Below are positions 511-40,576 of a stretch of 41,544 nt of DNA, one piece after another. The number at the start of each line of letters is the position of its first letter. Position 1 is the first letter of the stretch. Both the position numbers and the translations under genes were made by a program. The DNA is from Cytophagia bacterium (GTDB lineage Bacteria > Bacteroidota > Bacteroidia > Cytophagales > Microscillaceae), in contig RDZP01000009.1 in assembly GCA_004294005.1 (NCBI GenBank), positions 1 through 41,544 on the forward strand, given 5' to 3'. The notes below the pieces were generated by a model. The model had not been told where the DNA came from and ran no database searches. It worked only from the letters and a program-made list of their open reading frames with translations.

Positions 511-531
511 TTGAATAAAAATTTTAGATGT

Positions 532-1918: not shown

Positions 1919-1979
1919 TACTTTCATAGAAAGTCTAATATTTTTTAACATCATATTAGGTTTTGAAAAATAAATTCCT

Positions 1980-1987
1980 TATCTTTG
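1980..1987 (+). promoter_or_regulatory. -7 promoter box of methyltransferase copy 2
   Basis: TATCTTTG, identical to the box before copy 1 and embedded in about 50 nearly identical bases. The ATG at 2009 follows after 21 bases. The in-frame TTG at 1985 is inside the box and is rejected as a start. Confidence 0.65.
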
Positions 1988-2008
1988 TTGAATAAAAAAT
2001 TTAGATGT

Positions 2009-4183: not shown

Positions 4184-4186
4184 TTT

Positions 4187-21056: not shown

Positions 21057-21264
21057 GCCTTTGTAAACGCTTACATTACCTTTGTAAACGCTTACATTGC
21101 CTTTGTAAACGCTTACATTGCCTTTGTAAACGCTTACATTGCCTTTGTAAACACTTACATTGCCTTTGTAAACACTTACATTGCCTTTGTAAACACTTAC
21201 ATTGCCTTTGTAAACACTTACATTGCCTTTGTAAACGCTTACATTGCCTTTGTAAACACTTACA
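21057..21264. repeat. Ten tandem 21-bp repeats with an internal inverted repeat
   Basis: Ten head-to-tail units of 21 bp, each starting GCCTTTGTAAAC (unit 2 starts ACCTTTG) and ending TTACATT; the tenth is cut after TTACA. Units 1-4 and 9 have CGC in the middle, units 5-8 and 10 have CAC. Each holds the inverted pair TGTAA-n4-TTACA. The unit length is a multiple of three, so both strands stay open, but the frames lack any other sign of coding. No CRISPR-like unique spacers are present. The array lies between the terminator of the giant gene and the repeat at 20771-20891. Flanking bases 20613-20770 and 20892-21056 show nothing else. Confidence 0.92.
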
Positions 21265-21298: not shown

Positions 21299-21334
21299 AA
21301 ATATAGACAACCTTTTTAGTGATTGTCTATATTT
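21299..21334 (-). terminator. Terminator of the giant adhesin gene
   Basis: AAATATAGACAA (21299-21310) and TTGTCTATATTT (21323-21334) are perfect inverted arms with a 12-base loop. On the minus strand the stem runs into TTTGTTTTT. It starts 19 bases past the stop. Confidence 0.85.
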
Positions 21335-21353: not shown

Positions 21354-24300
21354 TTATCTTTTAATAATTTTTTTCCTTGCTTGGTATTTTCCTGTACGCC
21401 ATTCTACAAAATACATTCCGTTAGCGACATTAGTTAAATCTAATAATTCACTAAGTTCAATGTCTGTCTTTTGTCCTTTGTATTGAGTGATTATTTTTCC
21501 ATTTACATCAGTTATTGTCCATTCGTATTCTCCTTGAATAGGCAAATTGATGATTGCTTTTGCTTTGTCGCTTGTCGGATTAGGATAAATAGACAAATAG
21601 TTAGAAACATCAAAGCTTTCAAGTGCATTAGGGTCGCCTACTATGAACAAATTAGAAGTAGAAGCACAACCATCTATGGTCATAATGACAAAATAAGTAC
21701 CATTTTCAGTAGTTGGATACTCTGGCAAAGTAGCGCTTGGAATAGGAACATAATTTTTAAACCATTGATAAGTGTTTGCATCTCTAATAGAAGCCTTTAA
21801 CTTACTATCTTCATAAGTAATTGTAACAGGCGTAGCAGTTCCTTGTGCTATAATGAGTATATTATTGAAAGTAGAATCGGCACAAAGTCCTAAACCTGTT
21901 CCTACACTAATATAACATTTGTATTTACCCGTTGCATTTGCCAAATAAGTAGAAAAAATAGCACCTGCAATAGGTTCACCGTTTTTGTGCCATTGGTATC
22001 TTGCTCCGAAAGGACGTTTTGTAAGAATTAAAGCGGCGGATTTTCCTGCACAAACAGTTGTATTACCTGTTCCTACATCATCACGCAACACTGCAATAGA
22101 GCCTAAGTTACATACAGCGTCTGCACAAGAAATATTACTATAATCAGAATAACCACCTGCGGATACGGCTCTGACTCTATAACAATAAAGTTGTCCTTCT
22201 ACCAAATTAAGTGTATCACTAAAACTTCTATCACCTATGACTGCTGTATTAAATATCGTTCCTACACGTACATAAGGAGCGGAATTGCCGTTGGCTCTTT
22301 CTATTTCGAATCTTATTTGAGATGAAATATTATTATATCTCCATACTAAGTCGATTTGTCTTTTGGAAAGGGCTTGTGCCTGCAATGCAAAAGGTGGCGT
22401 AGTAGGTGAAGCGTTAGGGTCAATAGATGTAATGATATTGATACTATTGCTATAAGGTGAAATACCTACAAAAGACCTTGCTCTTACTCTATAACGGTAT
22501 TCAAAGAAAGCAAAAACATCTTCATCAATATAAGTAACTGTATTTCCTGCTCCTAGCATTGCTCCCACGCTTGCGATTCTGGTAAATTGGTTGTTAGTAA
22601 AGATACTGGCACGCTCCACATCAAAAGAAGTTTCATCTACAGAGTTATCTGTCCAAGTAAGTGTAATTTTATTAAACGTAATAGAGTTTGCTTGCAAATT
22701 TGTAGGGACATTTACGACTGCTTGTCCGATAACTACTAAACTTGCTTGGCTCCAAAGTGTAGTACCATTGCTTACTTTAGCACGAATACGATAATAATAA
22801 AGACCTGCACCTATATTAGTGTCATCAAAAGTAATCAAAGTATTATTGGTCGTATTCAAAATAGTTGTAGCATTAGCGAAAGCATCACTTAAATCTCTCT
22901 GAATTTCAAATCCTGTACCCGTAACAAGAGGGAAAGCGTCCCAAGTGAGCCTTGTAGAACTTCCTGACAAAGCAGTTGCTGAAAAGTTAGTTGGTGCAGG
23001 CAACATTGGGTCAATTTTAACCGCTACACTACCATTATAAGTGTCTATTCCACCATTGGCAACACCACCATCATCTCGCACACTAAAATTGATAGTGGCT
23101 TGTGCTGGGTTTGTTACGATTGCAGTTTGATTTACTCTATATTGAATATTCAAAGTCATATTTCCTGCAGTCGTATTAAGGGCAGGCGTAGGCGTAGCAC
23201 TTACGATTTCCAATATAGCAGGATTACTTGAAGTTACATTTGCTTGTATAAACCTTTGCGTTGCTTCGTTAGCAGGACCAGTTGCAAAATTAAGACTCAA
23301 TGTTGCTATTGGAGAAGTCAAAGTCATATTAGGAAGTATTGCAGGGCTTTGACTAATCAACACAGGAATATCATTGACAGGTGTAATGTTTACATTGATA
23401 GTAATAGTTGCTGTTCCACCTTCTCCATCTAACAAAGTAACATTAAAAGTATCTGTTCCATTTTCATTTAGATTAGGGGTATAAGTAAATGAAGGAATAT
23501 TTGTATTGTTTGTATTGACTACAACATTTCCTTTAGTAGGTTGTGTAGATATACTCCAATCAAAGTTAGTGAATGGAGTATTAGAATCTATATCAGTTGC
23601 ATTTAATGAGAACGAATTAGAGTTATCTTCAAGCGTGATAATGTTGAATAAAGTTCCTTGTGTGATAACGGGATTATTATTGAGTAATTCTACAGAAATA
23701 TTAGCAATATTTATGCAATTATTGCTATTTGTTTCGGTTAGTTGTATTGTTCCCGATGCAGGACTTGTTCCCCAAGTTACAGAAATGGTATTTGTACCTT
23801 GTCCTGTTGTAATAGTGCCGTTTGTTACATTCCATACATAAATATTACCTGTGCCTGTTGCGTTATAAGTTTGAGTACTACCTCTTAATATACTCAAGTT
23901 TCCCGTAATACTTGGCGTTGGTAGAAGATTAATAGTGATATTTTGGCTGGTAGTAGTTTCGCAATTTGTTGCGGTAACTGTTTCTACTAATTGTATTGCT
24001 CCTATACCTGCTGTTCCCCAAATTACAGAAATACTATTTGTATTTTGTCCACTATTGATAATACCTCCTGTGATTGTCCAAAAATATGTACTACCTACTA
24101 CATTTGTAACAGAATAATTTTGAGAACTATTAGCACAAATAATATTATTACCTATGATGGTTGGCGTTGGTAAGGCGTTAATGGTAATGTTGGTATTAGG
24201 TGAAACACTACTACAACCTGTGGTTGTTATTGTTTCTGTTAATTGCAAAGTACCAGCACCAGCGATGCCCCAAGTTACATTTATTTGATTTGTACCTTGT

Positions 24301-27300
24301 CCACTATCAATAGTACCTCCTGTGATTGTCCAAAGATAAGTATTGCCTACTACATTTAGAACAGAATATATTTGAGAACTATTGGCACAAACGGCATTAT
24401 TACCCGTAATGGTTGGTGTTGGTAAAGCGTTAATAGTAATGTTGGTATTAGGTGAAACACTACTACAACCTGTGGTCGTTATTGTTTCTGTTAATTGCAA
24501 AGTACCAGCACCAGCAATGTCCCAAGTTACATTTATTTCATTTGTACCTTGTCCACTATTGATAATACCTCCTGTGATTGTCCAAAGATAAGCATTGCCT
24601 ACTACATTTGTAACAGAATATATTTGAGAACTATTAGCACAAACAATATTATTACCTGCGATGGTTGGCGTTGGTAAAGCGTTAATAGTAATGTTTTGGT
24701 TAGTAGTTGCCAAACAACCTGTGGCTGTTATAGTTTCTAACACAGATACATTGCCTATACCTGTTACTCCCCAAATTACATCTATCGTATTTGTACCTTG
24801 TCCGTTAGAGATAACTCCTCCTGTGATTGTCCAAGAATATATATTACCTACTACATTTGTAACAGAATATATTTGAGGACTATTAGCACAAACAATATTA
24901 TTACCTATAATGGTTGACGTTGGTAAAGCATTGATAACAATGTTTTGAGCAACAGCGATGGCGCAACTTGTTGCAGTAACTATTTCAACTACTTGTACCG
25001 TTCTTACACCTGCCGTTCCCCAAGTTACGCTTATACTATTTGTATTTTGTCCTGAATCAATCGTACCACCTGTGATTGTCCAAATATAAGTATTACCTAC
25101 TACATTTGTAACAGAATAGATTTCGGAACTATTGGCACAAACGGCATTATTACCTATAATGGTTGGCGTTGGCAAAGGATTAACGGTACTTGTTGGAATA
25201 CTCACGTTTTGTGTAGTAGCGTTGGTACTTGTATGAGCAATATTGCCACTTGCACCATTAGTCGCACTTGTTATTTGACGGACGTAAATAGTAGTATTGG
25301 CTACATTTCCACTTGTAGGAGTCAAGTTAAGTGAATTTGCAAAACCTGTTCCTGTTGTAGTAGAAATTTGAAAGCCTGTTGGTGCGTTAATAACAATATC
25401 AGTTGCTAAGTTAGTGCCTGAAACGGTATAAGTTTGTTCTGTTGAGGCTGTTCCTGCACAAGAAGTAAAGGCAGACAAAGCAGAAGGAGAAACTACAATC
25501 GTAGGTAGTGAGAATACAGAGAAGTATTTTGTCGTTCCGCCAAGTCCTGTGATATTGGTTACACTTCCAGATGTACCTGATGCACTATTATTGAGCAAAG
25601 GCAAAGCATTATCCCAAGAGGAAACGTATTCTTTGATAGTAGTAGCCGCTACACTTGGATTTTGCCAATTTAAAGATAAATTAGTTACGTTTTGAGATGA
25701 GTTAATTGCCCAAACAATAGGCACATTATTTAAAAATCCTGCAGGAAGTTGTGGCAAACCATTGGTATTTTGCTCTCCTACTCTTACAAATACAATATCA
25801 TTAGCAATCGTTGCGTAAGTCAAGCTTGCAGGAGCGTATTGTGGTGTAGTACCACCACCCACAGGAAAATTATAAGTAGTTGCACTTGTAATATTTCTTG
25901 TTAATCCACCACTTCCATTGGTTTCAATGTAACTACTTGTATTGCCTCCTACGATAGCATTGGCTGCATTGTTAGTAATTGTTAAAGTATTTGTTCCTAA
26001 TCGCAATATCCCACTTGCCAAAGTCAAAGTATTGTTTACAGTCGCGTTTCCTTGCAAGGTTTTTATATTACTACCAGCAATTTCGAGGTTTTGGTAATTG
26101 GGACTTGCAAAAACTTGTTGAGTTGTGCCACCATAGACTACTTTTGCGGCGGTATTTGCACCTGTTGTATAGGTAGTAATGGCATTGTTAGTACCATTTA
26201 GATTGAGTGTATGGGCAAGACTTGTACCTCCTGACATATCTATTGTGCCGTTGGCATTGATTAAATCTCCCGTAATGGTTAGAGTTCTTGCTGTTGTGTT
26301 ACCAAAATTTATAGTTGCATTATTGGTTGTCAAATTTCCTGCTACATTTACATCTCCTTCAAGTGCTTTTATGCTACCTGAATTACCCACAATATCGAGA
26401 TTACCATAACGGTTTAATCCTGTACCTGATAATGCCTTCACATTTTGCGTACCTGTGAGGGCTGTATATCCGAAAGTTGAGTTTGGGTGAAGGTCATAAT
26501 TTGTAAAACCAGCAGGATAAGTGGTAGCAGTAGTAAATATGGTATTTATTACTTGTTTGAATGTTTTGTTTGTGCCAGAAGTGGTAATAGCACCACCTGT
26601 TAAAACATTTAATACACTATTTGTTCTAAGTTCAAGATTACCATTAATAATCATTGGAGTTGCAAGATTTTTGCTTCCACTTGTACCACTAATAATAACG
26701 TTATTAAAATCAAGAGTTCCAAATTTATTTGGAATATCGTAAGTTGAACTTCCATAAAACTCTACTAAGCCATTGTTTGATGGAACTAAAAAATTATTTG
26801 TGGTTACGGTTGGTAATAAAGTTTGACTTGACATTACCTTGGCTCCAGAGGTTGTGCAGTTTAAATCTGTAATTATATTACTTAAACCTGTGGTACTGTT
26901 GCTAAAATCAAGAACACTATTTCCAGATGTTAAATTAATAGTATTGTTAAGTTTTATATCTGTCTGACCAGTAACAGAAATGGTATGTGCGCCAATATTC
27001 ACAATAGCATTATCATTTGGGGTGCAGTTACAAGACGCTCCTAAATGTTTTAAAATATTATCTGTTGACCAAGTTCCAGGTGCGTTCCAATTACCGTTGG
27101 TTATGCTATAATATGTCCCTCCAAAGAAAAAAGATGGAGAAAATCTTGAAGTTCCGTTCGTATTATCTGTTGCAGTAGCAGTAATATTACTTCCTACTGT
27201 AAATGTACCTGTCAAAGACCACACACCACTTGCTGCAGTTGTTGTACCTTTGTAAATACGTCCTTGTGTTTCTAAGGGGTTATTTTCAAAAACCTCTATC

Positions 27301-30300
27301 ACATCACCAGTGATACCGAAACCCGAAACCGAAGTAGGTGTTGCAGCACTAATACTAGGTGCTACTTTGTCGTTATTACCAATGTTTAGCGAACCTGCTA
27401 AGGATATACCTCCTGAGGTATTATTATAGATATTGTTACCTGAAACACGATTATTTATTGCACCAAAACTACCCCCTTCTATCAAAACACCTGCCCCTGA
27501 GTTATTGGCAATGATATTTGCCTCGCCTGCTAAGGTGCCACCTATGATTACATTATTAGCGGCGCTGGTTATATTACCTGTTATAGTAATACCATTGCTC
27601 ATATTAGGAAGGCTTCCTATACCGTTAGCCGTTGTGCCTATGAGATTACCCCTGACAATAGTCCCGCTTGCTCGAATATACAGACCGCCAAGACTACCAT
27701 TACCACTGATGAGATTATTTAGAACTTGATTGCCTGTACCTGTGGCACCAAGTGCAATGCCTCGCTGAGCATTAGGGCGAGCAATAGTCCCTGTAATGTC
27801 TGTTCCTATATAATTTCCTTGAATGATATTATTATTAGAACCAGTTACTACCCCAGTAAAATTACTATTGGAAATAATGTTAAATGATGCAGGATTAATC
27901 GTTCCTGACCACCCTAAAATATTCCCACCTACTGTGCCTGCCATTTCTACTCCATTCATATTAGTAGCAGGAGTAAAACCATTAGTACGCAAGCCTATAT
28001 AACAGCCCTCTATACTGGTATTAGTAGTCGTACCATTAAGCCTAATTGTAGACTGATTACCTGAATTAGAAGGCACACCATAAATAGATAAACCTTTGAT
28101 AGTGGAATTACTTGCCGAATTTAAAGTAAGTGCCGCATGATTAGGTGGGTTTGCCCCTGAACCTATTCCTGCCGCATTGATTTCTACTCTTAACTGTGCA
28201 TTATTACCCGCATTAAATAAATTGCTATTCGGACTACTACCATACGCAGAATAACCATCAAGCAACACAGGTTCCGATATATTAGGCAAAACGGAGGTAA
28301 GTGCAATAGTGCTTACCGTAGAGGTATTTGCTTGCTGAATACTAAAATCTATATAATCTGTATCTGTATCTGTATTTGCTTCTGTAATTGCTTGACGTAG
28401 AGAGCCTAAGCCTGCACTTCCGTTATCTGTATCATCTGTAACACGCAAAGCCCACAAAGCACCGTTTTGTAAAGTACCATTGTTACCACCTACTATATCT
28501 ACAGCTTGGGTTTGAACACCTGTTGTTGCATCATCATCAAAATTCCAATAGGCTGCTGCACCATTGGGTGTTTGGGTAGCCATATCTAATTGGATTTGGG
28601 CTTGAGTACGTGCCACATTAAAAATTCTCACCTCATCTACTTGTCCTTTGTAATAACCGTAGGTAATATCAGAGCGTTCTCCAATAAAAAGATTAACTGA
28701 TGGAGGATTTGGAGGAGTAGTATTGGCGGGACCAGCAATACGATTGAGCACGACCCCATCTGCATAATAAGCCCAAATGCCTCCATTTCTGACGATAGCT
28801 AAGTGCGTCCAGCGATTGAGCGTAATAATGTAGTCCGTCTGGATATAGCCAATACCAATCAATTCAACCATAAATCGCCCATTCCCGTCAATAAACATCG
28901 AATAACCAAGACCATTCCTGATAATCTGTCCGCCTACTCGACTTAACTTTACCCATGCTTCTACGGTGAAGTTATCTGTTGCAGTACTTGGCGTATTGGC
29001 AACAATATGTTCTGTGCCTCCATTCAAATATATTCCTCTATTTCCCAAAGGTTGCGTAGGCAAACAAGCAGGTGAAATAGCATCATTTGAGATAGTCCAA
29101 CCTTTGCTATTTGTTAAGGTGTTTCTTGCATTAATTGCTGTGCAATATATTCTGCTCGTAGCTCCCAAAGTTACTCCTGTAGGTGCGCCTGCCTGTCCAG
29201 CCCAACCAATAAGGGTAGCATCATAATTAGCAGTGTTCATACCACAGTTATTGAGCATATCGGTCATATTTACTCCTAATGTTCTTAATTGCCAAGTAGC
29301 CAAAGATTGATTAAAAGCAATAGCATTTTCAAACATATTAGCCATCGTAGTAACATTGTTTACGTTCCAGCTGCTGATATCTTGATTAAATGAACCAGCA
29401 AAAGCAAACATATTAGCCATATTGGTAAATCTGGTGGTTTTCGTCCCCCAATTCAATATTACCCCGCCATTGTTAAAAGCCCCAGCACCGTAAAACATAC
29501 TGAGAGCGGATATATTAGATATAGTACTAAAGTTCCAATTGCTAAGGTCTTGATTGAAAGCAGAAGCAAATTGAAACATCCCATCGAAAGATGTTACATT
29601 ACTTACATTCCAACTACTTATATCCCTGTTAAAGACAGAGGCACCATTGAACATACCTTGCATACTAGTAACATTGCTTACATTCCAAGAACTGATATTT
29701 CCATTGAAAGCACTACAATCTCTAAACATACCTTGCATATTATTAGCAGGACTCAAAATTGGTATATCTGTAGCAGTATAGGTCAGATTTGAACATCCCC
29801 AAAATGAATTTTGCATACTTGCCCATGCAATATCTCCCCATTGTTCTATAGTACGTAGTTTGGTTCTGTTCGTGGCATTATTATCCATGTAGAAATGCGG
29901 GAATGTGCCTATAATATCTATTTGATAGACACTGTTATTCTGCAAACCCGTAATAGTGTAATCAGCTGTCTGCCCTATGATACTATTACCCTCTTGTACA
30001 CCTGGATTTGTAAGATTTCTCCAACTTACACCATAGTTATATGCTCCGCTTGCAGCACGGGTAGGAATTAAAATTTGTGTATCAGTAGTTATCCAAGTGG
30101 TGCGGAAAGGATTAGATACTACTGCTGACTGTGGAGTAGAAAAAGCCGAAGTTCCATTCGTTACGTCTGTAGCGGTAGATGTGATAGCATTAGCAAGCGT
30201 AAATGTACCTACGAAACCCCAAGTACCTGCTATTACTGTAGTTTGTCCTTTGTAAGTGCGTCCTTGTGTTTCTAAAGGATTATTTTCAAATATTTCTATG

Positions 30301-33300
30301 ATATCACCCGTTACGCCTGTACCTGTGATGAAAGAGGTTGTGGCAGAGGTGATAAATGGAGCGCTTTTACTACCATTACCTGTACCATTCAAATTGATAG
30401 CGGTTGTATTGCTAAATATATTATTTTGAGAAATTTTGTTAGCACTGCTTACCGAATTAATATTGACAGCAGTAGCACCATTTCGCATTATCAAACCTTG
30501 TAAAGTAGAATTATTAGCATTGACATCAAAAATATTATTACTATTTCCATTTATATCTATCCTTAGTTGTGTATCACTACCCAATGCACTGAATCCATCT
30601 ACAAAAACAGGGTTTGAAATATTAGGTAAGGCACCACCCAAAGTTATTGTTCTTAATGTAGGGGTGATATTATCAATACTAAAATCAATATAATCTTTAT
30701 CTGTATCTGTATTTGCTTCTGTAATTGCTTGACGTAGAGAGCCTAAACCTGCACTTCCTGTATCTGTGTTATCTGTTACACGCATCGCCCATAAAGCACC
30801 ATTTTGTAATGTACCATTATTAGAACCTGCTATATCTACGGCTTGGGTTTGAACACCTGCTGCTGCATCATCATCAAAATTCCAATAAGCCGATGCACCA
30901 TTCGGTGTTTGGGTGGACATATCTAATTGGATTTGGGAAGCATCTCGGACAGATGAAAAAATACGAACTTCGTCTATTTGTCCAGTAAATACATCTTGTG
31001 GGAGTCCACCATTGAAAATTGCACCTATCCGTAGCGGAAATGTATTAGTATTTGTTATTAGCAAATTGTTATCTGTGCCAGAGGCTTGTAACACCCCATC
31101 TATGTAAATCGCATAAGAGCGTGGCGTTTGCTTATACACTAGCGCCACATGACTCCATTTGTTAAATGTAATAGAATTGAGGGGTGTAGTAATATTTGTA
31201 CCATCTGCATCTGAAAAAAAGAGAAGACTATTTCCACTATTTTCTAAGTGTGAAAATAGAATATCCGAAGCATTATTTCCAACACTCCATTTTGAAAAGA
31301 TAACATTCTGTCTATTCGTGCCCGTGCGTGTTGGTTTAATCCAAGCCTCCGCCGTAAATTCTGTTTGGAAAGTTGTTCCTAAAACATTGCCAATGTTTAC
31401 ATAATCATTCTGCCCATCAAAATACAAACCTCTATTGCCTAAAGGTTGGGTGGGAATAGGTGTAATAGTTTGTAAGCCACCATTAGAAACCGCAGAAAAG
31501 AAACTTGTGTTGCCTGTTGCAAAAGTAAAATCAGTAATGGCAGGTGCAATGATACTGATTGTATTACCATTAGCTGCGCCACCTCCAACATCAGCGGTAA
31601 CAAAGAAATAACCTGTACCTACAGGGATAGTTATTGACGGTAAGCCTGTAAAAGTCTGCACACCTGCGGTTGCAGGGGTAATAGTAGCAAAAGTAGCATC
31701 ACCCACATCTAAAATATTATCAGTAGAATAACGTAATTTCAAATTAGTAATATCAGCAGTAGCATAAGTACCTCCCGTTGTAAGTTTTAACTCTGTTAGC
31801 GTTGCATCTAAAGAGGTAACGACTGTACTAAATTGATACAATATATTATCAGTTGTTTCTTTTAGTATGTTGCCTGCAGTAACTACCGGATTTGGATTAA
31901 TAACAATTATTGGAACAGGAGCAGGTGTAAACATTGCAAAATCTCTATTCCCTGAGTTCCCCGCAGAAATAATAGCAGAGGCGGTTTGAGTGCCTGCTGT
32001 ATAGGTTGTTATAATACCTGTATTTGTCCAAGCACTACTATTTTGATGAATTTTAGCATTAAAAGGTAGTGTAGCACTTTGATTACTCACATTCCAATCA
32101 AATTTTATATTTGGATTGGTAGCGCCTGACGTAGCTATATTCCAAATTCTATTTACTTTTGGGCTTTCGGTAATAGTATTTGCTTCATCTCTTACCGAAA
32201 CGCCCACACTTCCAAAATTACCTGTATTGGTAAAAGTCAAAGGTGTATAATCCGAAGTGGTAGCACCAATAGGAAACTCCACATTTCCTATTGTTGCATC
32301 TACATTTAATCTATTAAATTGCCCTCCTGCACTCGTAACAATATACTTACTACTACTGAATGGCGTTCCTAAAAGTTGTGTTGCATACGACGTGCCACTA
32401 AGTTGTAAGGTATTTGCACTTGTTATCAACTTTCCAGCAGTGAGCGTTAAAGAACGGAATACCGTTGTATTATCTTGCAAAGTTACTGTAGGAATTGCAG
32501 GCAAAGTTGCAGTATTATTTATCTCCAAATCAAAAAAAGTAGTAGCACCTGAGATAGTTTGAGGAGTTGTACCATTGAAAGTTACTTTGTTTGAATTTGC
32601 TAAGAAATTAGCACCTACATTGTTGGTAAAATCTCCTGCAACGGTAATGTTACCTGATAAGGTTTTTGTAACAGTGTTATCACTGATTACTAAATTCTGA
32701 TAAGCAGTAGTAACAATATTTTGGGGAAAACCACTCGCATATTCTACGGTATTGCTTGGTGTTGAGGCACTTAGAGTAATACCAAAAGAACCTCCAAGTT
32801 TTAAATAACTTCCTCCATTATTATTAAAAATAGAACTTCCGTCAGTTGTTATATTTCCTGCAACATTCATTGTTGCATTATTGTTGATAGTACCTGTATT
32901 TAGAGTAATTGAAGCAGGGGTATTTGTAAGATTATAGATATTACTCGAGCCATTAAAATTAAGCAAAGGGGTACCAGAACCTGATGGTGTAAATAAAGAT
33001 GCCCCAAAATTCATATTTCCATCAAAGTTTATAGTTGGACTTCCTGAACCTATTTCTACTCCACCTGTAAAATTGATGGGTGATGCACTACTATTTAATA
33101 CATTTAGATTACTCAAAGGATTAAGCACTACATTACTTGTGCTTGTAAAACTTCCTGAACTTCCAACCGTAATGTTATTTTTAAAAGTATTCGTGCCTGC
33201 TGCGTTTGTATCATTAAAAGTGCCATCGATTGTACTTATACCACTGACAGTAAGGTTAATTGCTTGCGGGTCAAAACTACCACCACTATTGATAACAAAA

Positions 33301-36300
33301 TCCTTATTGATTGTTAAAGCATCGCCTACCCCATTAAATGAAGCAGGTGCTGATAAAACAGTAAAATCATTATCTATTGTCATTCCTCCAAATTCAAAAC
33401 TACCTATTCCTACCCCCTCTATTTCTACATTTTGAAAATTAGTAATAGCACTAAGTTTCTCAGGAATATTATAATTACTACCATAAAAAACTACTTTGTT
33501 GGTATTATCATAAGTACCAATGTTTGTAATTGAAGGTATTAAATCTGCACCACCTACACGAATTGTACTTCCTCCTGATGGGGCAGTGAGTGTATTGATA
33601 CTTGGAGGTCCGTCCCAACTACCTGAAAACTGTAAAACAGCTTTATTACCTACTGATAATGTACCAATGGTAAAGAAATTATTACTACCACTTGGTGCTA
33701 CATTAAGTCTTCCACCATTGTTTAACGCATCTCCATCTACTAAGGTTAGATTTGCTACATTGATATTAGAACTTGGTGGGATAGTTACAATGTGGTTTTG
33801 TTGAATGATTACATTATCTGTTGGTGAACTTGGTGCTATTCCACCTACCCAAGTACCCCCATCATTCCAATTTCCTGATTGAACAGAGGTGTAGGTAGTA
33901 GCCGAAAATACTGCAAAAGTATTTGTTGTATTTGCAAATTGTGTTACACCACTTGAAGTAGCCTCTTGTGTTCCTATCGATGTAGGTCTTACACTATTAA
34001 AATTTTGTATAATCTTGGCAGTTCCAGCATTAAAACTAACCTCATTGGCAACTTCCCAACCGAATTTAAGGAGAGCGATGGACGCATCTGCCCCTTGTTG
34101 TATTCTCCATACAGCGTCAATTTTTTCGGTGGCATTAAAATTAGGCAAAGACAAAGTATTTGGCTTTGCTGCTCTTACTGATATATTACCCACTGGCACA
34201 GTGGAATAAATAACTTTTACAGGTGTGTAGGTATAGGTATTGGATGCTATTTCTATTCCAATCGGGAATAAATGCTCACTGAAAGGTATGAAATTAACTC
34301 TATTAAAATTACCTGCACTACCATTAGTTACTACATAACTATTGGCACTAATGCTTAAATTTGGTTCAAAACCACTATAACTAAAATTATATTCACCCAA
34401 TAATACTTTTCCACTCATTAGGTTTAGCTGGTCACTTACATTTACTGACTGCCCAAGTATTATGTTGCCTGAAGATTTGTTGATAACAAGACGAGTAAAA
34501 TCTGTAACAGCAGTGCCTCCAATGGTTTGAGTAACTGCGGTGCCATTAAAATGTACTGGAAAGTTATTAGAGTCAAATATGTCAGGCAAAGTTAAATCAT
34601 TAGTAAAATCTCCAAGTACAAATATTTGGTCTGTTAAAGCTTTACTGCCTGTGCCAGTCAATACCAAATGGTAATAAGTGGCGGGTAGAATAGTTTGTCC
34701 GCTACTCCCGTTATACTCTACTGTATTCCCTACTGCTGACGCATTGAAAAAATCGGGAGCAAAATTCCCACTTAGTTTTAAATAAGCATTTGTAAGGTTG
34801 TTGAAAGTAGCACCTGTTGAGTTTACGTTACCTGTAATGCTAAGTGTACCTGAATTATTGATGATAGTATTCTGAATAATTAAATTACCTAAAATATTAT
34901 AGGTTTTTGTTGCGTCACCTGCAAAATTGATAGTTGGAGTATTAGAACTATTGACCTCAAAATTTCCTGCAAAGTCCATATTACCATCGAAGGTAATAGC
35001 ATTATCAGAATTGATTTGCAAGGAAAGACCAAATGACATAGGGCTTGCACTATTATTTACAACACTCATATTTACCGCAGGAGAAATATTAACCTGACTT
35101 TGACTTGAAAAAGTCCCTGAACTTCCAACTGTAATGTTATCTTTAAAGGTGTGAAAATTTGTATTATTGGTATCAGTAAAAGAACCATCAATAATAGTCG
35201 TCCCCTCCACTGTAATATTTCTCTCCAAAGGATTAAAAGTTCCTGCAGTAATTTTGAAATTTTTATTTACAATACAACCTAAACCACCACTTACAGGCAA
35301 AGTAATCGTCTGCACTGCTGCATTGATTTCTAAGTTGGGGTAATTAACAGCCCCAAAAGTAGGAGGAATTTCATAGCCATTTGTACCTGTATAAAATTCT
35401 ACTGTGCCGTCTGTGAAGTTATTAGTGGTAATGGTAGGTAAAGTAATAGGACTACTTGTTGAAGTGAAACGGAGTCTGCCTGTGCCTTGTAAATTGCTTA
35501 TTGGATTTAGGGCTGTTGTATTGTTACCAAAATCTAAAACCCCATTTACCTCTAAGTTTGTAATATTTACTAAGATAGTGGTAGTAATATTTACCCTATG
35601 TCCTGCTTTAATTATAACATTATCACCTGCATTAGGTACACAACCACAGCTTGATCCGTCATGACCTGTTGATGACCAAGTTCCAGATGCCCAATCTGCA
35701 CCAGTAGTTGAAATATTTGTAGCATCATCTCGGCTATAATAAGTTGTACCAGCCAAAGGCACAAAAACTCCATACGTACCAAAATCAGGTGAAGCACTAT
35801 AAGGTATATTAAAACCTGATGAATAAGAAGCCAAAGGTGCTGCCCAATTGGTCCCGTTGTGTCTATACAAACTTCCTGAAGAAAGTAAACTTGTTTCACT
35901 GATGGCAGTCCAATTGAAGGTAAGTGATGATATAGTAGCAGTACCTGTTGTTAATATATTCCACACGTATTTTACGTAAGGATTACCTGCAATAGTTGGA
36001 AAACTATTTATTCCTTGTTCTTGTACTGTAAACTTCAAATCAGGAGTTTCTGTAACACTATAATTAAAAAGAGTAATATGCATAGCACTAACTGGACTAC
36101 CTATTGGAATAGTTACATCTGGGACTATTGCAGCTCCATTATTATTTGTTACATTAAAGTATGCCTGTGGACTTAAAGTATTGTTATAAAACCAAGAATT
36201 AACATTTGTATTGAAAGATGCTTGACTTGCATTAAACACTGCTTGCGAAATATTAAAATCAAAATCATTTTGATTGATTTTATTATTATTTCCCAAAGTA

Positions 36301-39300
36301 AAAACAGTGCCACCAGTGTTAAGAGTGATTACACCTGTCATAATTTTATCAGCAATAGAAGTTTGTGTAACAAATTCTAAGTTTTGATAAGTAGTTCCAA
36401 TTATTTGCTGTGTACCTAATTGTCTATTATAACGAACCAATGAACCACTTGTGCCTGTTATCAATGTTCCAATAGCATTATTTTCTCCTCTAAGTTCTAA
36501 GGTATGGGTGGCACTCGATAAGTCAATCGTCCCATTTCCACTCACATCACGATTGACGGTTACAGTTTTGGCTACTCCCCCAAAAACCATAGCAGTTGAA
36601 CTACCACTTAGCAATAAGTTAGTCGCAACCGTAAAATTACCTGTAAGATTTTTAACATTATTTCCTACTAAAAGAAGATTGCCATAAGTAATATTATTTC
36701 TTATATCTTGGGGTATTGTAGCATAATATACGACCGTAGATGTTGTATTTAAGGTATAAGTTCCAAATCCCGAAGGAAAATTACTTGCTCCTACTCTTAA
36801 CAAAGCATTGGCAGCTATGGTTAGTGTGTTTGTGCCTGTTACGGTAGTAGTGCCTATATCTACACCACCCACATTTGTATTGTTAATGGTTAGATTATTA
36901 AATGCAGATGTAGAACTTCCACCTATGGTTTGAGCTGTTGTTGTATTTGCGAAGGTAATGGTACTTGTAACTCCTGTTATGATAGTAGCTCCATTATTAG
37001 TCCAATCTCCTGTTATACTTACAGGAAAAATACCAAAATCTTTATTGCTCCCACCCGAAAATTGTATGTTGTTGAAAGTAGAGATTAGACCTATATTTTG
37101 ATTTATCGCACCATTATAATGTACAGTATTGGGTACAGCCGTAAAATTACAAGTAGATGTAGGGGCATTAGCACTTGCGTAATTAAGGGTAGCCCCTGCA
37201 TTGTTGTTGAATGTGCCACCCGTTAAGTTTCCTGTCAAACTGAGTGTTTTATTGTTATTGAATACAGAAGCAGTAGTTCCTAAGGTCAGCGTTCCGCCCA
37301 TTGTTATACTATTTGTAGCGTTGTTTGTAACAGTTTTGTTATTGGTTACTGTTACCGCTGCATTACCAAAATTGATAGGATTTGTAACACCTGAAATGGT
37401 AACAGCTGCAGTACCCGCAGAGAAACTAAAAGCGGTGCCTGTTGAGAGAGTAAATGTACCATTTACTATTAAATTACTTGATAAATTAATATTAACATAA
37501 CCCAAGTTACTAAATGTAGTACCTGTTTTTACTTCTAATTCTCCACCAATATTTAAAGTATTGGCTGAACCTGCTCCTTGCAAAGCACCAGCATTTATCA
37601 CCAAATTTTTAGTTATAAAAGTACCTGTAGTGGGTAATGTTTTTGTACCTCCATTTATCCATACATCAGGATAACCTGTACCTGTATTACCTAAATTTAA
37701 AGGAATTGTATAGTTTCCACCATCAAACCAAACTACTGTATTATTAGTAACAAAAGCATTTCTAAAATGAGACGCATTGGTAATATTAGACGCACCCGCA
37801 ACGGTGGACATACGGAAAGTATTGATAGAATTACCATTACTACTTAATGTAGCAATAATAGGTGAAAAAGTCCCTACATTAAGCGTTGCCCCATTGTTTA
37901 TGGCTAAATTATTTACGATTACACTTGCTATATCTACTGTTATTATCGTTCCAGAACCTGTGATAATCACATCATCACCTGTGAGAGGAACACCTACAGG
38001 TGACCAAATTGCAGGATTATTCCAATTTCCTGAGGCGGAAGCAGTTTTGGCAGAAAGAATAAATACCGTAAAAAATCTTTCTGTATTCATAGGCAAAGTA
38101 GCACCCAAAGGACTAGTAACTTGCGTGCCAATAGCACTCCCGCCCTGTGATACCCAAGAAGTACCATTATAAAAACGACTTGATGCACCTGTTATAGTTC
38201 CTGTAACATTAGCAGCCTGCCAATTCATCTGAACACTATTGGCAGTAATAGCCACTGAAGAACTTACTCCCCATTGCACATTGAGATTAGCAGTAGTGGA
38301 AGGCAATGAAGGCGTACCCGTAGATAGTAATCTTAATTTTATATCTGTATTGGCAGATGGAGTAATGCTCAATGGATTGTATGTAGCACCTATGCCAACA
38401 GGAAAAATATATGGATTATTTGATAGTAAATTATTCCTTATAAAAGTAGAAGTAGGATTATTAATAACTATATAGGATATTGATGTTGGTGTGATGGGTA
38501 ATATTTGATTTGAAGCAGTAGGATTAGAAAGCGTTAAATTATTATTATTTATATACATTAGTCCTCTGGTCAGAGTAAGTGTATTGAGTATGGTGATAAA
38601 ATTATTAAAAGCTACACCATCAGTGCTTGCAGTTTTATTAATGACTACGTTATACAAAGTAACAGATTCAGTTGTAACAAAACCAGTATTGGCATTAGCG
38701 CCCGTAAAAGTAAATGTACCATTCCTATGCAGTATATTCGACGAACCACCCACATTTAATATCCCTTTAATATCAACTGTATAAGTAGCATTTACTACAT
38801 CAAGGATTACATTATTAAGTAACTCTAAATTTTCATTGACTGTGAGTGGTGCAGTTAAAGATAAGGTTCTGTTATTGCTTAATCTCAGTTTATGATAAGT
38901 GGCTGCTCTAATGTTATGATTGCCACTTCCATTGTACCAAAAAGTACTTCCCCCAGCACTTACATTAAAGTTTGTAACCGTAGGCGCTGCATTTCCTACA
39001 TAATTTAAGTAACCATTTGGATTATTAATAAATGTACCTGTCCCTATCAAATTACTTGTAGTAGTTGGAGCGCCTGGTCCACCATCATTGGAGTTAGCTA
39101 GAGTTCCAATAATATTAATCCCGTCACCATCTAATAATTCAACATCTCCAATAGACGATAATACAGTTACACTTATAGAAGAGTTTATCGTAGCTGTTGC
39201 TTGTCCCGCAGTACCTGCATTGAAAGTCATATTAGAAGCGCTACTATTTGTAATGCTAAGATTAGTAACGAATGAATAATTTGAAATATTGATATTAAAA

Positions 39301-39737
39301 GTTCCCGCATTAGTTATATTCCCTCCAAAAGAAAAAGATGAAACGCCTCCAGAAGCGGTAAAACTACCACCACTAATGACGTTAATAACCCCAAATGTAT
39401 TCGTACCACCCGCCACATTGTCTATAAAAGTACCATTGACTGTAGTAGTACCTGTAACTGTTATATTATTTCCTTGTGGGTTAAGCGTAACACCAGCATT
39501 AATAGTCAATGTTCCGATATCAGAAATTGTGGAGGTTATCGTAACATTGTGTGCAATCGTAACCGTAGCCCCTGAAATAGGTACAGTACCACCAACCCAT
39601 GTACTACCTGCACCCCAAGGACCTGCTTGAGAAGTCGTCTGCCCCATTACCCTCTCCCCTATTCCCATAAACATCAAAAGGAAGATGAATAAATAGATAA
39701 TTTTATTGATTGTATTGGAGGTAAAAAAAGAAAGCAT
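21354..39737 (-). CDS. Giant multidomain T9SS-secreted adhesin-like protein
   Basis: About 6,127 residues from MLSFFTSNTI, rich in Asn, Thr, Ser and Gly. A signal peptide ends near VMGQ (about 33). Long beta-strand repeats (VNGTFT, NNLTINN, QTIGG) fill much of the N-terminal 2,700 residues. They are divided by GNW-type modules near 35, 565, 1332, 1946 and 4205 (for example SGNWNDGGTWVGG...DNVII). LamG-like domains lie at about 2768-2963 and 3565-3738, each followed by GLGSLRQAITEAN and beta-helix repeats. BspA/DUF285 repeats are at 3297-3508. Six PKD-like repeats are at 4850-5360, a cadherin-like domain to 5456, three fibronectin type III domains at 5578-5870, Ig-like domains to about 6035, and a T9SS type A sorting domain (LSIYPNPTSD) at 6040-6127. 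It probably sits on the cell surface for adhesion. The frame is open for 18.5 kb without a break. An in-frame ATG at 39848 would add 37 residues before the signal peptide and is less likely. Confidence 0.9.
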   Translation of the reverse strand: MLSFFTSNTINKIIYLFIFLLMFMGIGERVMGQTTSQAGPWGAGSTWVGGTVPISGATVTIAHNVTITSTISDIGTLTINAGVTLNPQGNNITVTGTTTVNGTFIDNVAGGTNTFGVINVISGGSFTASGGVSSFSFGGNITNAGTFNINISNYSFVTNLSITNSSASNMTFNAGTAGQATATINSSISVTVLSSIGDVELLDGDGINIIGTLANSNDGGPGAPTTTSNLIGTGTFINNPNGYLNYVGNAAPTVTNFNVSAGGSTFWYNGSGNHNIRAATYHKLRLSNNRTLSLTAPLTVNENLELLNNVILDVVNATYTVDIKGILNVGGSSNILHRNGTFTFTGANANTGFVTTESVTLYNVVINKTASTDGVAFNNFITILNTLTLTRGLMYINNNNLTLSNPTASNQILPITPTSISYIVINNPTSTFIRNNLLSNNPYIFPVGIGATYNPLSITPSANTDIKLRLLSTGTPSLPSTTANLNVQWGVSSSVAITANSVQMNWQAANVTGTITGASSRFYNGTSWVSQGGSAIGTQVTSPLGATLPMNTERFFTVFILSAKTASASGNWNNPAIWSPVGVPLTGDDVIITGSGTIITVDIASVIVNNLAINNGATLNVGTFSPIIATLSSNGNSINTFRMSTVAGASNITNASHFRNAFVTNNTVVWFDGGNYTIPLNLGNTGTGYPDVWINGGTKTLPTTGTFITKNLVINAGALQGAGSANTLNIGGELEVKTGTTFSNLGYVNINLSSNLIVNGTFTLSTGTAFSFSAGTAAVTISGVTNPINFGNAAVTVTNNKTVTNNATNSITMGGTLTLGTTASVFNNNKTLSLTGNLTGGTFNNNAGATLNYASANAPTSTCNFTAVPNTVHYNGAINQNIGLISTFNNIQFSGGSNKDFGIFPVSITGDWTNNGATIITGVTSTITFANTTTAQTIGGSSTSAFNNLTINNTNVGGVDIGTTTVTGTNTLTIAANALLRVGASNFPSGFGTYTLNTTSTVVYYATIPQDIRNNITYGNLLLVGNNVKNLTGNFTVATNLLLSGSSTAMVFGGVAKTVTVNRDVSGNGTIDLSSATHTLELRGENNAIGTLITGTSGSLVRYNRQLGTQQIIGTTYQNLEFVTQTSIADKIMTGVITLNTGGTVFTLGNNNKINQNDFDFNISQAVFNASQASFNTNVNSWFYNNTLSPQAYFNVTNNNGAAIVPDVTIPIGSPVSAMHITLFNYSVTETPDLKFTVQEQGINSFPTIAGNPYVKYVWNILTTGTATISSLTFNWTAISETSLLSSGSLYRHNGTNWAAPLASYSSGFNIPYSASPDFGTYGVFVPLAGTTYYSRDDATNISTTGADWASGTWSSTGHDGSSCGCVPNAGDNVIIKAGHRVNITTTILVNITNLEVNGVLDFGNNTTALNPISNLQGTGRLRFTSTSSPITLPTITTNNFTDGTVEFYTGTNGYEIPPTFGAVNYPNLEINAAVQTITLPVSGGLGCIVNKNFKITAGTFNPLERNITVEGTTIIDGSFTDTNNTNFHTFKDNITVGSSGTFSSQSQVNISPAVNMSVVNNSASPMSFGLSLQINSDNAITFDGNMDFAGNFEVNSSNTPTINFAGDATKTYNILGNLIIQNTIINNSGTLSITGNVNSTGATFNNLTNAYLKLSGNFAPDFFNASAVGNTVEYNGSSGQTILPATYYHLVLTGTGSKALTDQIFVLGDFTNDLTLPDIFDSNNFPVHFNGTAVTQTIGGTAVTDFTRLVINKSSGNIILGQSVNVSDQLNLMSGKVLLGEYNFSYSGFEPNLSISANSYVVTNGSAGNFNRVNFIPFSEHLFPIGIEIASNTYTYTPVKVIYSTVPVGNISVRAAKPNTLSLPNFNATEKIDAVWRIQQGADASIALLKFGWEVANEVSFNAGTAKIIQNFNSVRPTSIGTQEATSSGVTQFANTTNTFAVFSATTYTSVQSGNWNDGGTWVGGIAPSSPTDNVIIQQNHIVTIPPSSNINVANLTLVDGDALNNGGRLNVAPSGSNNFFTIGTLSVGNKAVLQFSGSWDGPPSINTLTAPSGGSTIRVGGADLIPSITNIGTYDNTNKVVFYGSNYNIPEKLSAITNFQNVEIEGVGIGSFEFGGMTIDNDFTVLSAPASFNGVGDALTINKDFVINSGGSFDPQAINLTVSGISTIDGTFNDTNAAGTNTFKNNITVGSSGSFTSTSNVVLNPLSNLNVLNSSASPINFTGGVEIGSGSPTINFDGNMNFGASLFTPSGSGTPLLNFNGSSNIYNLTNTPASITLNTGTINNNATMNVAGNITTDGSSIFNNNGGSYLKLGGSFGITLSASTPSNTVEYASGFPQNIVTTAYQNLVISDNTVTKTLSGNITVAGDFTNNVGANFLANSNKVTFNGTTPQTISGATTFFDLEINNTATLPAIPTVTLQDNTTVFRSLTLTAGKLITSANTLQLSGTSYATQLLGTPFSSSKYIVTSAGGQFNRLNVDATIGNVEFPIGATTSDYTPLTFTNTGNFGSVGVSVRDEANTITESPKVNRIWNIATSGATNPNIKFDWNVSNQSATLPFNAKIHQNSSAWTNTGIITTYTAGTQTASAIISAGNSGNRDFAMFTPAPVPIIVINPNPVVTAGNILKETTDNILYQFSTVVTSLDATLTELKLTTGGTYATADITNLKLRYSTDNILDVGDATFATITPATAGVQTFTGLPSITIPVGTGYFFVTADVGGGAANGNTISIIAPAITDFTFATGNTSFFSAVSNGGLQTITPIPTQPLGNRGLYFDGQNDYVNIGNVLGTTFQTEFTAEAWIKPTRTGTNRQNVIFSKWSVGNNASDILFSHLENSGNSLLFFSDADGTNITTPLNSITFNKWSHVALVYKQTPRSYAIYIDGVLQASGTDNNLLITNTNTFPLRIGAIFNGGLPQDVFTGQIDEVRIFSSVRDASQIQLDMSTQTPNGASAYWNFDDDAAAGVQTQAVDIAGSNNGTLQNGALWAMRVTDNTDTGSAGLGSLRQAITEANTDTDKDYIDFSIDNITPTLRTITLGGALPNISNPVFVDGFSALGSDTQLRIDINGNSNNIFDVNANNSTLQGLIMRNGATAVNINSVSSANKISQNNIFSNTTAINLNGTGNGSKSAPFITSATTSFITGTGVTGDIIEIFENNPLETQGRTYKGQTTVIAGTWGFVGTFTLANAITSTATDVTNGTSAFSTPQSAVVSNPFRTTWITTDTQILIPTRAASGAYNYGVSWRNLTNPGVQEGNSIIGQTADYTITGLQNNSVYQIDIIGTFPHFYMDNNATNRTKLRTIEQWGDIAWASMQNSFWGCSNLTYTATDIPILSPANNMQGMFRDCSAFNGNISSWNVSNVTSMQGMFNGASVFNRDISSWNVSNVTSFDGMFQFASAFNQDLSNWNFSTISNISALSMFYGAGAFNNGGVILNWGTKTTRFTNMANMFAFAGSFNQDISSWNVNNVTTMANMFENAIAFNQSLATWQLRTLGVNMTDMLNNCGMNTANYDATLIGWAGQAGAPTGVTLGATSRIYCTAINARNTLTNSKGWTISNDAISPACLPTQPLGNRGIYLNGGTEHIVANTPSTATDNFTVEAWVKLSRVGGQIIRNGLGYSMFIDGNGRFMVELIGIGYIQTDYIITLNRWTHLAIVRNGGIWAYYADGVVLNRIAGPANTTPPNPPSVNLFIGERSDITYGYYKGQVDEVRIFNVARTQAQIQLDMATQTPNGAAAYWNFDDDATTGVQTQAVDIVGGNNGTLQNGALWALRVTDDTDNGSAGLGSLRQAITEANTDTDTDYIDFSIQQANTSTVSTIALTSVLPNISEPVLLDGYSAYGSSPNSNLFNAGNNAQLRVEINAAGIGSGANPPNHAALTLNSASNSTIKGLSIYGVPSNSGNQSTIRLNGTTTNTSIEGCYIGLRTNGFTPATNMNGVEMAGTVGGNILGWSGTINPASFNIISNSNFTGVVTGSNNNIIQGNYIGTDITGTIARPNAQRGIALGATGTGNQVLNNLISGNGSLGGLYIRASGTIVRGNLIGTTANGIGSLPNMSNGITITGNITSAANNVIIGGTLAGEANIIANNSGAGVLIEGGSFGAINNRVSGNNIYNNTSGGISLAGSLNIGNNDKVAPSISAATPTSVSGFGITGDVIEVFENNPLETQGRIYKGTTTAASGVWSLTGTFTVGSNITATATDNTNGTSRFSPSFFFGGTYYSITNGNWNAPGTWSTDNILKHLGASCNCTPNDNAIVNIGAHTISVTGQTDIKLNNTINLTSGNSVLDFSNSTTGLSNIITDLNCTTSGAKVMSSQTLLPTVTTNNFLVPSNNGLVEFYGSSTYDIPNKFGTLDFNNVIISGTSGSKNLATPMIINGNLELRTNSVLNVLTGGAITTSGTNKTFKQVINTIFTTATTYPAGFTNYDLHPNSTFGYTALTGTQNVKALSGTGLNRYGNLDIVGNSGSIKALEGDVNVAGNLTTNNATINFGNTTARTLTITGDLINANGTIDMSGGTSLAHTLNLNGTNNAITTYTTGANTAAKVVYGGTTQQVFASPNYQNLEIAGSNIKTLQGNATVNNTLTLASGILRLGTNTLTITNNAANAIVGGNTSSYIETNGSGGLTRNITSATTYNFPVGGGTTPQYAPASLTYATIANDIVFVRVGEQNTNGLPQLPAGFLNNVPIVWAINSSQNVTNLSLNWQNPSVAATTIKEYVSSWDNALPLLNNSASGTSGSVTNITGLGGTTKYFSVFSLPTIVVSPSALSAFTSCAGTASTEQTYTVSGTNLATDIVINAPTGFQISTTTGTGFANSLNLTPTSGNVANTTIYVRQITSATNGASGNIAHTSTNATTQNVSIPTSTVNPLPTPTIIGNNAVCANSSEIYSVTNVVGNTYIWTITGGTIDSGQNTNSISVTWGTAGVRTVQVVEIVTATSCAIAVAQNIVINALPTSTIIGNNIVCANSPQIYSVTNVVGNIYSWTITGGVISNGQGTNTIDVIWGVTGIGNVSVLETITATGCLATTNQNITINALPTPTIAGNNIVCANSSQIYSVTNVVGNAYLWTITGGIINSGQGTNEINVTWDIAGAGTLQLTETITTTGCSSVSPNTNITINALPTPTITGNNAVCANSSQIYSVLNVVGNTYLWTITGGTIDSGQGTNQINVTWGIAGAGTLQLTETITTTGCSSVSPNTNITINALPTPTIIGNNIICANSSQNYSVTNVVGSTYFWTITGGIINSGQNTNSISVIWGTAGIGAIQLVETVTATNCETTTSQNITINLLPTPSITGNLSILRGSTQTYNATGTGNIYVWNVTNGTITTGQGTNTISVTWGTSPASGTIQLTETNSNNCINIANISVELLNNNPVITQGTLFNIITLEDNSNSFSLNATDIDSNTPFTNFDWSISTQPTKGNVVVNTNNTNIPSFTYTPNLNENGTDTFNVTLLDGEGGTATITINVNITPVNDIPVLISQSPAILPNMTLTSPIATLSLNFATGPANEATQRFIQANVTSSNPAILEIVSATPTPALNTTAGNMTLNIQYRVNQTAIVTNPAQATINFSVRDDGGVANGGIDTYNGSVAVKIDPMLPAPTNFSATALSGSSTRLTWDAFPLVTGTGFEIQRDLSDAFANATTILNTTNNTLITFDDTNIGAGLYYYRIRAKVSNGTTLWSQASLVVIGQAVVNVPTNLQANSITFNKITLTWTDNSVDETSFDVERASIFTNNQFTRIASVGAMLGAGNTVTYIDEDVFAFFEYRYRVRARSFVGISPYSNSINIITSIDPNASPTTPPFALQAQALSKRQIDLVWRYNNISSQIRFEIERANGNSAPYVRVGTIFNTAVIGDRSFSDTLNLVEGQLYCYRVRAVSAGGYSDYSNISCADAVCNLGSIAVLRDDVGTGNTTVCAGKSAALILTKRPFGARYQWHKNGEPIAGAIFSTYLANATGKYKCYISVGTGLGLCADSTFNNILIIAQGTATPVTITYEDSKLKASIRDANTYQWFKNYVPIPSATLPEYPTTENGTYFVIMTIDGCASTSNLFIVGDPNALESFDVSNYLSIYPNPTSDKAKAIINLPIQGEYEWTITDVNGKIITQYKGQKTDIELSELLDLTNVANGMYFVEWRTGKYQARKKIIKR
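23660..25190 (-). repeat. Six PKD-like coding repeats of about 250 bp
   Basis: Six consecutive units of 82-84 residues with the core NNIVCANSSQIYSVTNVVGN, WTITGG and a closing NITINALP. Units 3 and 4 are nearly identical at the DNA level as well (about 24165-24665), the sixth is the most diverged and lacks the CAN motif. PKD domains are common spacers and binding modules in T9SS proteins. Confidence 0.88.
29215..29850 (-). repeat. BspA/DUF285-type 25-residue coding repeats
   Basis: Repeats with the pattern ISSWNVSNVTSMQGMF, about 25 residues each, with 6-7 recognisable copies. This is the BspA-like surface repeat first known from Mycoplasma and Bacteroidota surface proteins. The block is enclosed by the two LamG-containing modules. 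Confidence 0.88.
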
Positions 39738-39885
39738 AGTTTTTTGTATGTATGATAAATGAGATATTTTTGTGTGCAAAGAAAAAGGTATGTTACAATG
39801 ATTATGAAAACATGTATGTTTTGAAAGCAGATTGTATAAAATGTTCATAATTGGATTATTTTTTTGTATTCTTACATTGATTACA

Positions 39886-39893
39886 CAAAGATA
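39886..39893 (-). promoter_or_regulatory. -7 promoter box of the giant adhesin gene
   Basis: The minus strand reads TATCTTTG. The leader to the ATG at 39737 would be about 140 bases, longer than elsewhere in the window, and contains the perfect inverted repeat AAAACAT-GT-ATGTTTT at 39807-39822. No -33 TTTG is seen. The rest of the gap to 40060 is AT-rich; I see no clear box for the sigma factor gene. Confidence 0.5.
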
Positions 39894-40060
39894 CGAAAAG
39901 TAATTGAATTTTGTTGATTTATGATAAAAAAAATGTCCATTTTTTTACATTTTTGATTTTTTAAGGATTTTTCTTACATTATTTTTTATTTATCTGTAAT
40001 GTTTTTAGCGTTTCATCGTCTCACTCAATAAGAACAAAACATCAAATTGAATTGGACAAT

Positions 40061-40576
40061 ATGGATTTGCAAAATTTTCAAAAAGAAATATGGATTTATA
40101 GAAATAAACTATTACGTTTTGCTAATCAACTGTTACATCAAGCCTCTGATGCTGAAGATATTGTGCAAGAAGTATTTTTGAGAATGTGGAAAATGGGTGA
40201 AAAATTAAACGAATACAATAGCAAAGAAGCGTTGGCAATGCAAATTACAAAAAATTTGTGTGCAGACAAACGAAAATTAAAGCAAAGTCAAAATTATGCC
40301 TTAGAAGACAATGCGTACAGAACTTTATCTGATGCACCTTCGCCTCACAAAACCACCGAGTTGAAAGATACTAAAAGTTGGATTGATTTTGCTATCACAC
40401 AATTACCTGAAAATCAACAAGTTATAATCAAATTAAGAGATATTGAAGAATATGAATTTGAAGAAATAGCTGAAATTTTGAAAATGGACATTAATGCTAT
40501 AAGAGTAAATTTATCAAGAGCAAGAAAAAAAATACGTGATTTTTTGACCGAAAAAGAAAATTATGAACAAAAATAA
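40061..40576 (+). CDS. ECF-type RNA polymerase sigma factor
   Basis: Extracytoplasmic-function sigma-70 factor, 171 residues. Region 2 is at about 10-75, with ASDAEDIVQEVFLRMWK. A short linker follows. Region 4 is at about 112-165: ITQLPENQQVIIKLRDIEEYEFEEIAEIL, then INAIRVNLSRARKKIRDFL, a helix-turn-helix. No region 1 or 3 is present, as expected for ECF factors. The ATG at 40061 is preferred over a TTG at 40052. It overlaps the next gene by 14 bases, which marks the pair as a sigma/anti-sigma unit. It is divergent from the giant adhesin gene. Its target promoters are unknown. Confidence 0.93.
   Translation: MDLQNFQKEIWIYRNKLLRFANQLLHQASDAEDIVQEVFLRMWKMGEKLNEYNSKEALAMQITKNLCADKRKLKQSQNYALEDNAYRTLSDAPSPHKTTELKDTKSWIDFAITQLPENQQVIIKLRDIEEYEFEEIAEILKMDINAIRVNLSRARKKIRDFLTEKENYEQK

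Follow-up and report, generated by a model that had tools for sequence, protein, structure and literature searches.

The window analysed here, 41,544 nucleotides long, is a whole contig of a 2.78-Mb MAG (217 contigs, 79.8 % complete). Its minus strand carries a single uninterrupted frame of 6,164 codons followed by TAA, the sole stop, at the very end. The sequence-only reading had described one uninterrupted gene starting at 39737; this was confirmed, with the start moved 37 codons upstream to the ATG at 39848, position 39737 being Met38 in the same frame. The longer start is favoured by a promoter-like TATCTTTG element that ends 37 nt upstream of this ATG; TATCTTTG is −7-like, the Bacteroidota −7 consensus being TAnnTTTG. 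A chance frame was ruled out: when these 18.5 kb were shuffled 200 times by mononucleotide, the longest stop-free run averaged 118 codons and never exceeded 189, and in the remaining five frames of the real DNA it came to 57–165 codons. The gene looks monocistronic because a terminator-like hairpin with a T-run lies 19 nt after its stop; the hairpin had a folding z of −5.4, and none of 200 shuffles folded as well. An Rfam search of the window returned no matches. The features of the gene and its product are as follows.

39886..39893, minus strand: promoter-like TATCTTTG element (pattern)
21354..39848, minus strand: complete giant gene (frame and shuffles)
39639..39848, minus strand: N-terminal extension with signal-peptide-like hydrophobic segment, aa 1–70 (inspection)
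38055..39641, minus strand: beta-helix module 1, aa 70–598 (self-BLAST, alignment)
35754..38045, minus strand: beta-helix module 2, aa 602–1365 (self-BLAST, alignment)
33894..35753, minus strand: beta-helix module 3, aa 1366–1985 (weak G8 match; AlphaFold2 model)
31929..33893, minus strand: beta-helix module 4, aa 1986–2640 (self-BLAST, alignment)
30927..31418, minus strand: Laminin_G_3 domain 1, aa 2811–2974 (Pfam, 89.9 bits)
30129..30926, minus strand: post-LamG 1 region, aa 2975–3240 (aligns with the CSLREA-like/beta-helix region after LamG 2)
29073..30131, minus strand: DUF285/PARCEL block, aa 3240–3592 (six repeat units of ~25 aa each)
28590..29024, minus strand: Laminin_G_3 domain 2, aa 3609–3753 (Pfam, 80.9 bits)
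27129..28589, minus strand: CSLREA-like and right-handed beta-helix region 2, aa 3754–4240 (sub-threshold matches)
25485..27128, minus strand: beta-helix module 5, aa 4241–4788 (self-BLAST, alignment)
23679..25187, minus strand: six PKD_6-like repeats of ~84 aa each, aa 4888–5390 (profile, self-comparison)
23388..23681, minus strand: Big_9/tandem-95 cadherin-like domain, aa 5390–5487 (profile)
22134..23006, minus strand: three fibronectin type III (fn3) domains, aa 5615–5905 (profile)
21870..22067, minus strand: Ig-like domain (Ig_7), aa 5928–5993 (sub-threshold match)
21357..21590, minus strand: T9SS type A sorting domain (TIGR04183/Por_Secre_tail), aa 6087–6164 (profile)
21299..21334, minus strand: intrinsic-terminator-like hairpin with a 14-bp stem, then a T-run

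Codon-position GC was 0.396/0.480/0.222 in the giant gene, compared with 0.413/0.289/0.221 in the 14 other window genes pooled. The higher GC of the giant gene can be attributed to amino-acid content (Thr 14 %, Asn 12 %, Gly 10 % and Ser 9 %), as the excess lies in second codon positions. In third positions the giant gene agrees with the other 14, and hence it shows no foreign composition; a recent arrival from a compositionally different genome was unsupported.

In the window, 21057–21264 is occupied by ten units of 21 bp that have TGTAARYGTTTACA as their core; the array starts 89 nt after the stop of the giant gene. A second ten-unit array in the same genome (C182:321–544, L181) likewise begins 89 nt past a stop codon, that of a same-strand gene whose product carries a T9SS sorting domain. 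When the MAG was searched for two adjacent units with up to three mismatches, the 19 matches fell in these two places only, and the reversed control gave none. The two 89-nt spacers were identical at 37 of 89 positions (shuffles had a mean of 30, with 122 of 2,000 as high) and are not clearly related. The array pattern was absent from the other 56 of the 57 genomes searched and, as exact matches, from the viral collection. The TGTAARYGTTTACA core may resemble LacI-family operators. Two such arrays are too few for a functional claim.

Downstream of the giant gene and on the same strand are genes for a TolC-like outer-membrane protein (18677–20071) and a secreted-looking L-type (legume-like) lectin (17457–18584). 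The region 40052–41363, divergent from the giant gene, holds a gene for an ECF sigma factor of the PG0214/GFO_1088 family (190 bits, cut-off 130), overlapped by that of a HEAT-repeat protein with one hydrophobic segment. At 508–3382, two successive genes match EcoRI-type adenine methyltransferase over a similar stretch and are by appearance a tandem duplicate.

Domain architecture and probable export route

The mosaic build ending in a T9SS sorting domain, as proposed in the sequence-only reading, was borne out by Pfam/NCBIfam profile searches of the 646-kDa protein. The count of at least eight kinds of domain was not sustained at curated Pfam cut-offs, above which six families were found before the sorting domain (G8, Laminin_G_3, DUF285, PKD_6, Big_9 and fn3); eight are reached only by counting weak matches, those below cut-off being Ig_7, Beta_helix, BNR_assoc_N and CSLREA. 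Cadherin_5 also exceeded its cut-off, but on the Big_9 stretch.

The five beta-helix modules are diverged and range from ~530 to ~760 aa each. The G8 match scored 29.7 bits in a 1,500-aa piece and 21.6 bits in module 3 alone (cut-off 22.9); being borderline and found in one of the nine aligned modules, G8 was dropped as a name for all of them. On either side of the PARCEL block stands a LamG module (aa ~2795–3240 and 3590–4240); the two include CSLREA-like and beta-helix regions, and the region after LamG 1 had no family of its own in the Pfam/NCBIfam scans. The PARCEL block, which scored 168.7 bits with DUF285 and 55–58 bits with TIGR02167, contains a tandem 25-residue amphipathic repeat; its DNA held one 13-nt palindromic pair, 85 % complementary, in 601 nt, in a search made without the motif discovery of the PARCEL paper. 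A Cys pair 58 residues apart was present in five of the six PKD_6-like repeats.

Structure prediction by segment, as the sequence-only reading had suggested, yielded a model for module 3. AlphaFold2, run with the nine aligned modules, gave a mean pLDDT of 82.3, a pTM of 0.83 and strands that are short and evenly spaced between residues ~45 and ~400, a model that supports a parallel beta-helix. The ‘beta-helix’ label of modules 1, 2, 4 and 5 follows from their alignment with module 3. Foldseek found no match to the module 3 model in the PDB at E ≤ 0.001, and no PDB sequence matched the module profile at E ≤ 0.1. The best neighbours in VIA-align included pertactin (Z 15.2, rmsd 5.5, 376 aligned), and further neighbours were the HMW1 secretion domain (Z 13.4), the Awp1 adhesin domain (13.1), phage tailspikes (12–14), a PL6 alginate lyase (12.6) and the fucoidan lyase FdlA (11.9). 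Comprising lyases and depolymerases as well as adhesins, these are beta-helix neighbours of a general kind only, and the predicted structure does not decide between adhesin and enzyme. A model of LamG module 2, built with three sequences, had a mean pLDDT of 38.7 and was not used.

The sorting domain scored 42.8 bits with TIGR04183 (cut-off 23) and 42.5 bits with PF18962 (cut-off 27). There were 37 type A sorting-domain matches in the MAG, 35 of them over the cut-off. SprA (2,430 bits) and PorU (1,333 bits) were also present, both over their cut-offs, and the best PorV match in this 79.8 % complete genome was 22 bits against a cut-off of 250. The sorting domain, SprA and PorU support the prediction that the giant protein is a T9SS type A substrate, and its location would be the cell surface. 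By inspection alone, aa ~48–70 form a hydrophobic segment followed by small residues before a Gln; this N-terminal signal segment would take the protein through the Sec pathway to the periplasm, where the C-terminal sorting domain would direct it to the SprA translocon. Type A proteins of Porphyromonas, in the available text of two sources, have their sorting domain cut off by PorU and are tied to A-LPS (PMC9143113, PMC5445135). PorU may likewise detach the sorting domain of the giant protein and join the new C-terminus to surface lipopolysaccharide.

Relatives, selection and module turnover

The C-terminal 3,000 residues had matches in 33 of 37 genomes and the N-terminal 3,000 residues in 20 of 37, counts that include the MAG itself and in which most matches cover part of the query. 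In named genomes, the closest C-terminal regions belonged to MAGs labelled Cytophagales bacterium or Bacteroidetes bacterium, the best being 42 % identical.

A genome of the same genus (G001) contained a homologue split at two contig ends (L074:1275–14255, 4,327 aa; L068:1–2622, 873 aa), the pieces sharing a 32-nt end and together spanning at least 5,190 codons. Exact repeats, 86 and 123 nt long, occur in this homologue, and the contig breaks fall among them. Like the giant protein it possesses LamG/CSLREA-like regions, PKD-like repeats, fn3 domains and the sorting domain, with four beta-helix modules; unlike the giant protein it has no DUF285 and no Big_9 but carries one extra LamG as well as Ig_7 domains. 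No DUF285 match was found anywhere in the G001 genome, and the spread of this family was patchy (16 of 37 genomes). Because the homologue is split between contigs and has neighbouring ORFs that, by inspection, are unlike those of the window, orthology with the giant gene is not proved.

Comparison of the giant gene with the G001 homologue gave 71 % identity over the last 552 aligned codons (~555 aa; dS 1.30, dN 0.22, ratio ~0.17), 44 % in the N-terminal part (2,351 aligned codons; dS 1.40, dN 0.56, ratio ~0.40) and 53 % in the LamG/CSLREA region (dN/dS ~0.38), the ratios being rough because dS values of 1.3–1.4 are near saturation. They were calculated for these three stretches by the Nei–Gojobori method with a custom script. 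The claim that the gene is under selection is supported; it is these ratios, and not the open frame by itself, that speak for it.

Inside the giant gene, one LamG module matches the other at 90 % identity over 263 nt (window 28338–28600 and 30675–30937), with a dS of 0.26 in a 70-aa core compared with 1.01 over 282 aligned codons. Gene conversion, or else a partial duplication of recent date, would account for the similarity. The giant protein is best read as having an anchor end that is conserved and a distal part that changes fast: in the one same-genus comparison, the anchor end evolves slowly, and the distal part changes as modules are gained, lost and duplicated in frame.

Probable function and place among giant surface proteins

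It is probable that this giant multi-domain protein is exported by the T9SS as a type A substrate and serves as an adhesin. The protein would be anchored at the surface, with an adhesive role and a division into stalk and tip. The stalk would consist of the fn3 domains, the Ig-like domain and the disulfide-capable PKD-like repeats by the anchor; contact with polysaccharide surfaces or with other cells would fall to the distal part, made up of the beta-helix, LamG and PARCEL modules.

The same distal modules could be read as a polysaccharide-degrading or -binding enzyme scaffold, in which LamG binds glycans and at least one beta-helix module cleaves them. LamG domains are present, the PL6 alginate lyase, FdlA and tailspike depolymerases are among the VIA-align neighbours of module 3, and there is a weak BNR_assoc_N match at aa 2661–2740; however, no catalytic family exceeded its cut-off in the pieces scanned and the five modules have diverged, with only 7 invariant columns across the nine aligned modules, which makes a scaffold of this kind unlikely. 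A gliding adhesin that moves along cell tracks, like SprB of Flavobacterium johnsoniae, is very unlikely, although the two proteins are similar in length (6,164 and 6,497 aa; PMC9870892) and GldJ/GldK-like matches occur in the MAG. The GldJ matches were below cut-off (137 vs 458 bits), the sorting domain is type A (TIGR04183) with no type B model among the matches at E ≤ 0.01, and no PorP/SprF-like partner was found among the window neighbours scanned, the contig ending 1.7 kb past the gene start. SprB is itself a giant, repetitive, T9SS-exported surface adhesin (PMC9870892; PMC9143113), but as described in the available text it has a type B sorting domain and is held by its partner SprF (PMC9143113, PMC5445135), whereas the giant protein is of type A and had no such neighbour among those scanned. 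Its type A sorting domain means that it is not grouped with SprB despite the similar length.

Type A proteins come off when the anchoring lipopolysaccharide is missing (PMC5445135, available text), and giant proteins of Apilactobacillus kunkeei have been found in culture supernatant (PMC12863079, available text), which would agree with an extracellular-matrix protein that is exported by the T9SS and released unanchored; with PorU present in the MAG, this is improbable. As for the palindromic 21-bp array, we give rather little credence to a lineage-specific diversification or control arrangement in which a constant anchor and stalk are combined with an in-frame exchangeable middle (PARCEL/LamG cassettes, local gene conversion) and the array acts as a protein-binding or recombination site. 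Least of all is the gene likely to be an assembly artefact or to be decaying. The MAG is a short-read-type assembly in 217 contigs and the sister assembly (G001) is broken inside the PKD repeats, but the longest exact internal repeat of the giant gene is 49 nt and no 51-mer occurs twice, so that assembly collapse is unlikely; the frame is intact throughout, and dN/dS was below 1 in the regions tested.

The adhesin reading, which we prefer, can be set beside several known systems. Type A cargo of Porphyromonas gingivalis likewise has the C-terminal sorting domain, with the PorU sortase encoded here as well; the giant protein differs in being far longer, in its beta-helix, LamG, PARCEL and PKD-like modules and in that PorV was not found. 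With PARCEL/DUF285 proteins, as presented in the available text of PMC2996958, it shares the 25-residue amphipathic repeats and the patchy presence, but here a single repeat block of ~140 aa stands in a much larger protein, and no periodic palindrome was found in the 601 nt of DNA examined. The Giant1–5 proteins of A. kunkeei are also extracellular, with a signal peptide, repeats, a conserved C-terminus and an N-terminal beta-solenoid (PMC12863079); they are from a Gram-positive organism and, in the part of that source available, have other domains and no T9SS; the likeness is by analogy only. G8-domain beta-helix proteins (CEMIP/TMEM2/fibrocystin type) have the parallel beta-helix in common with the module 3 model, G8 itself being a borderline match in one of nine modules.

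The suggestion that the length of the protein approaches the upper range for bacterial proteins did not stand. SprB is longer, and so is a frame in another genome from this order (G033:C33), which runs for 9,981 codons from stop to stop and corresponds to a frame of ~9,970 codons over two abutting loci (L069, 381–20000; L070, 1–10302). According to the available text of PMC11573180, UniProtKB held 41,754 proteins with 5,000 aa or more; a sizable share were bacterial, with surface proteins among the main groups of these. The A. kunkeei giants span 3,000–8,000 aa (PMC12863079, available text). A probable adhesin, the giant protein well illustrates a class of giant bacterial adhesins that is already known; it does not represent a new one.

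The locus offers a clean and complete case of a giant protein of the T9SS type A group in an uncultured lineage, and the same-genus homologue distinguishes its conserved end from the rebuilt one. Should type A anchoring hold the 646-kDa chain, then the covalent lipopolysaccharide route, beside that of SprB/SprF, would suit proteins of such sizes; otherwise, the giant protein adds to a well-populated class.
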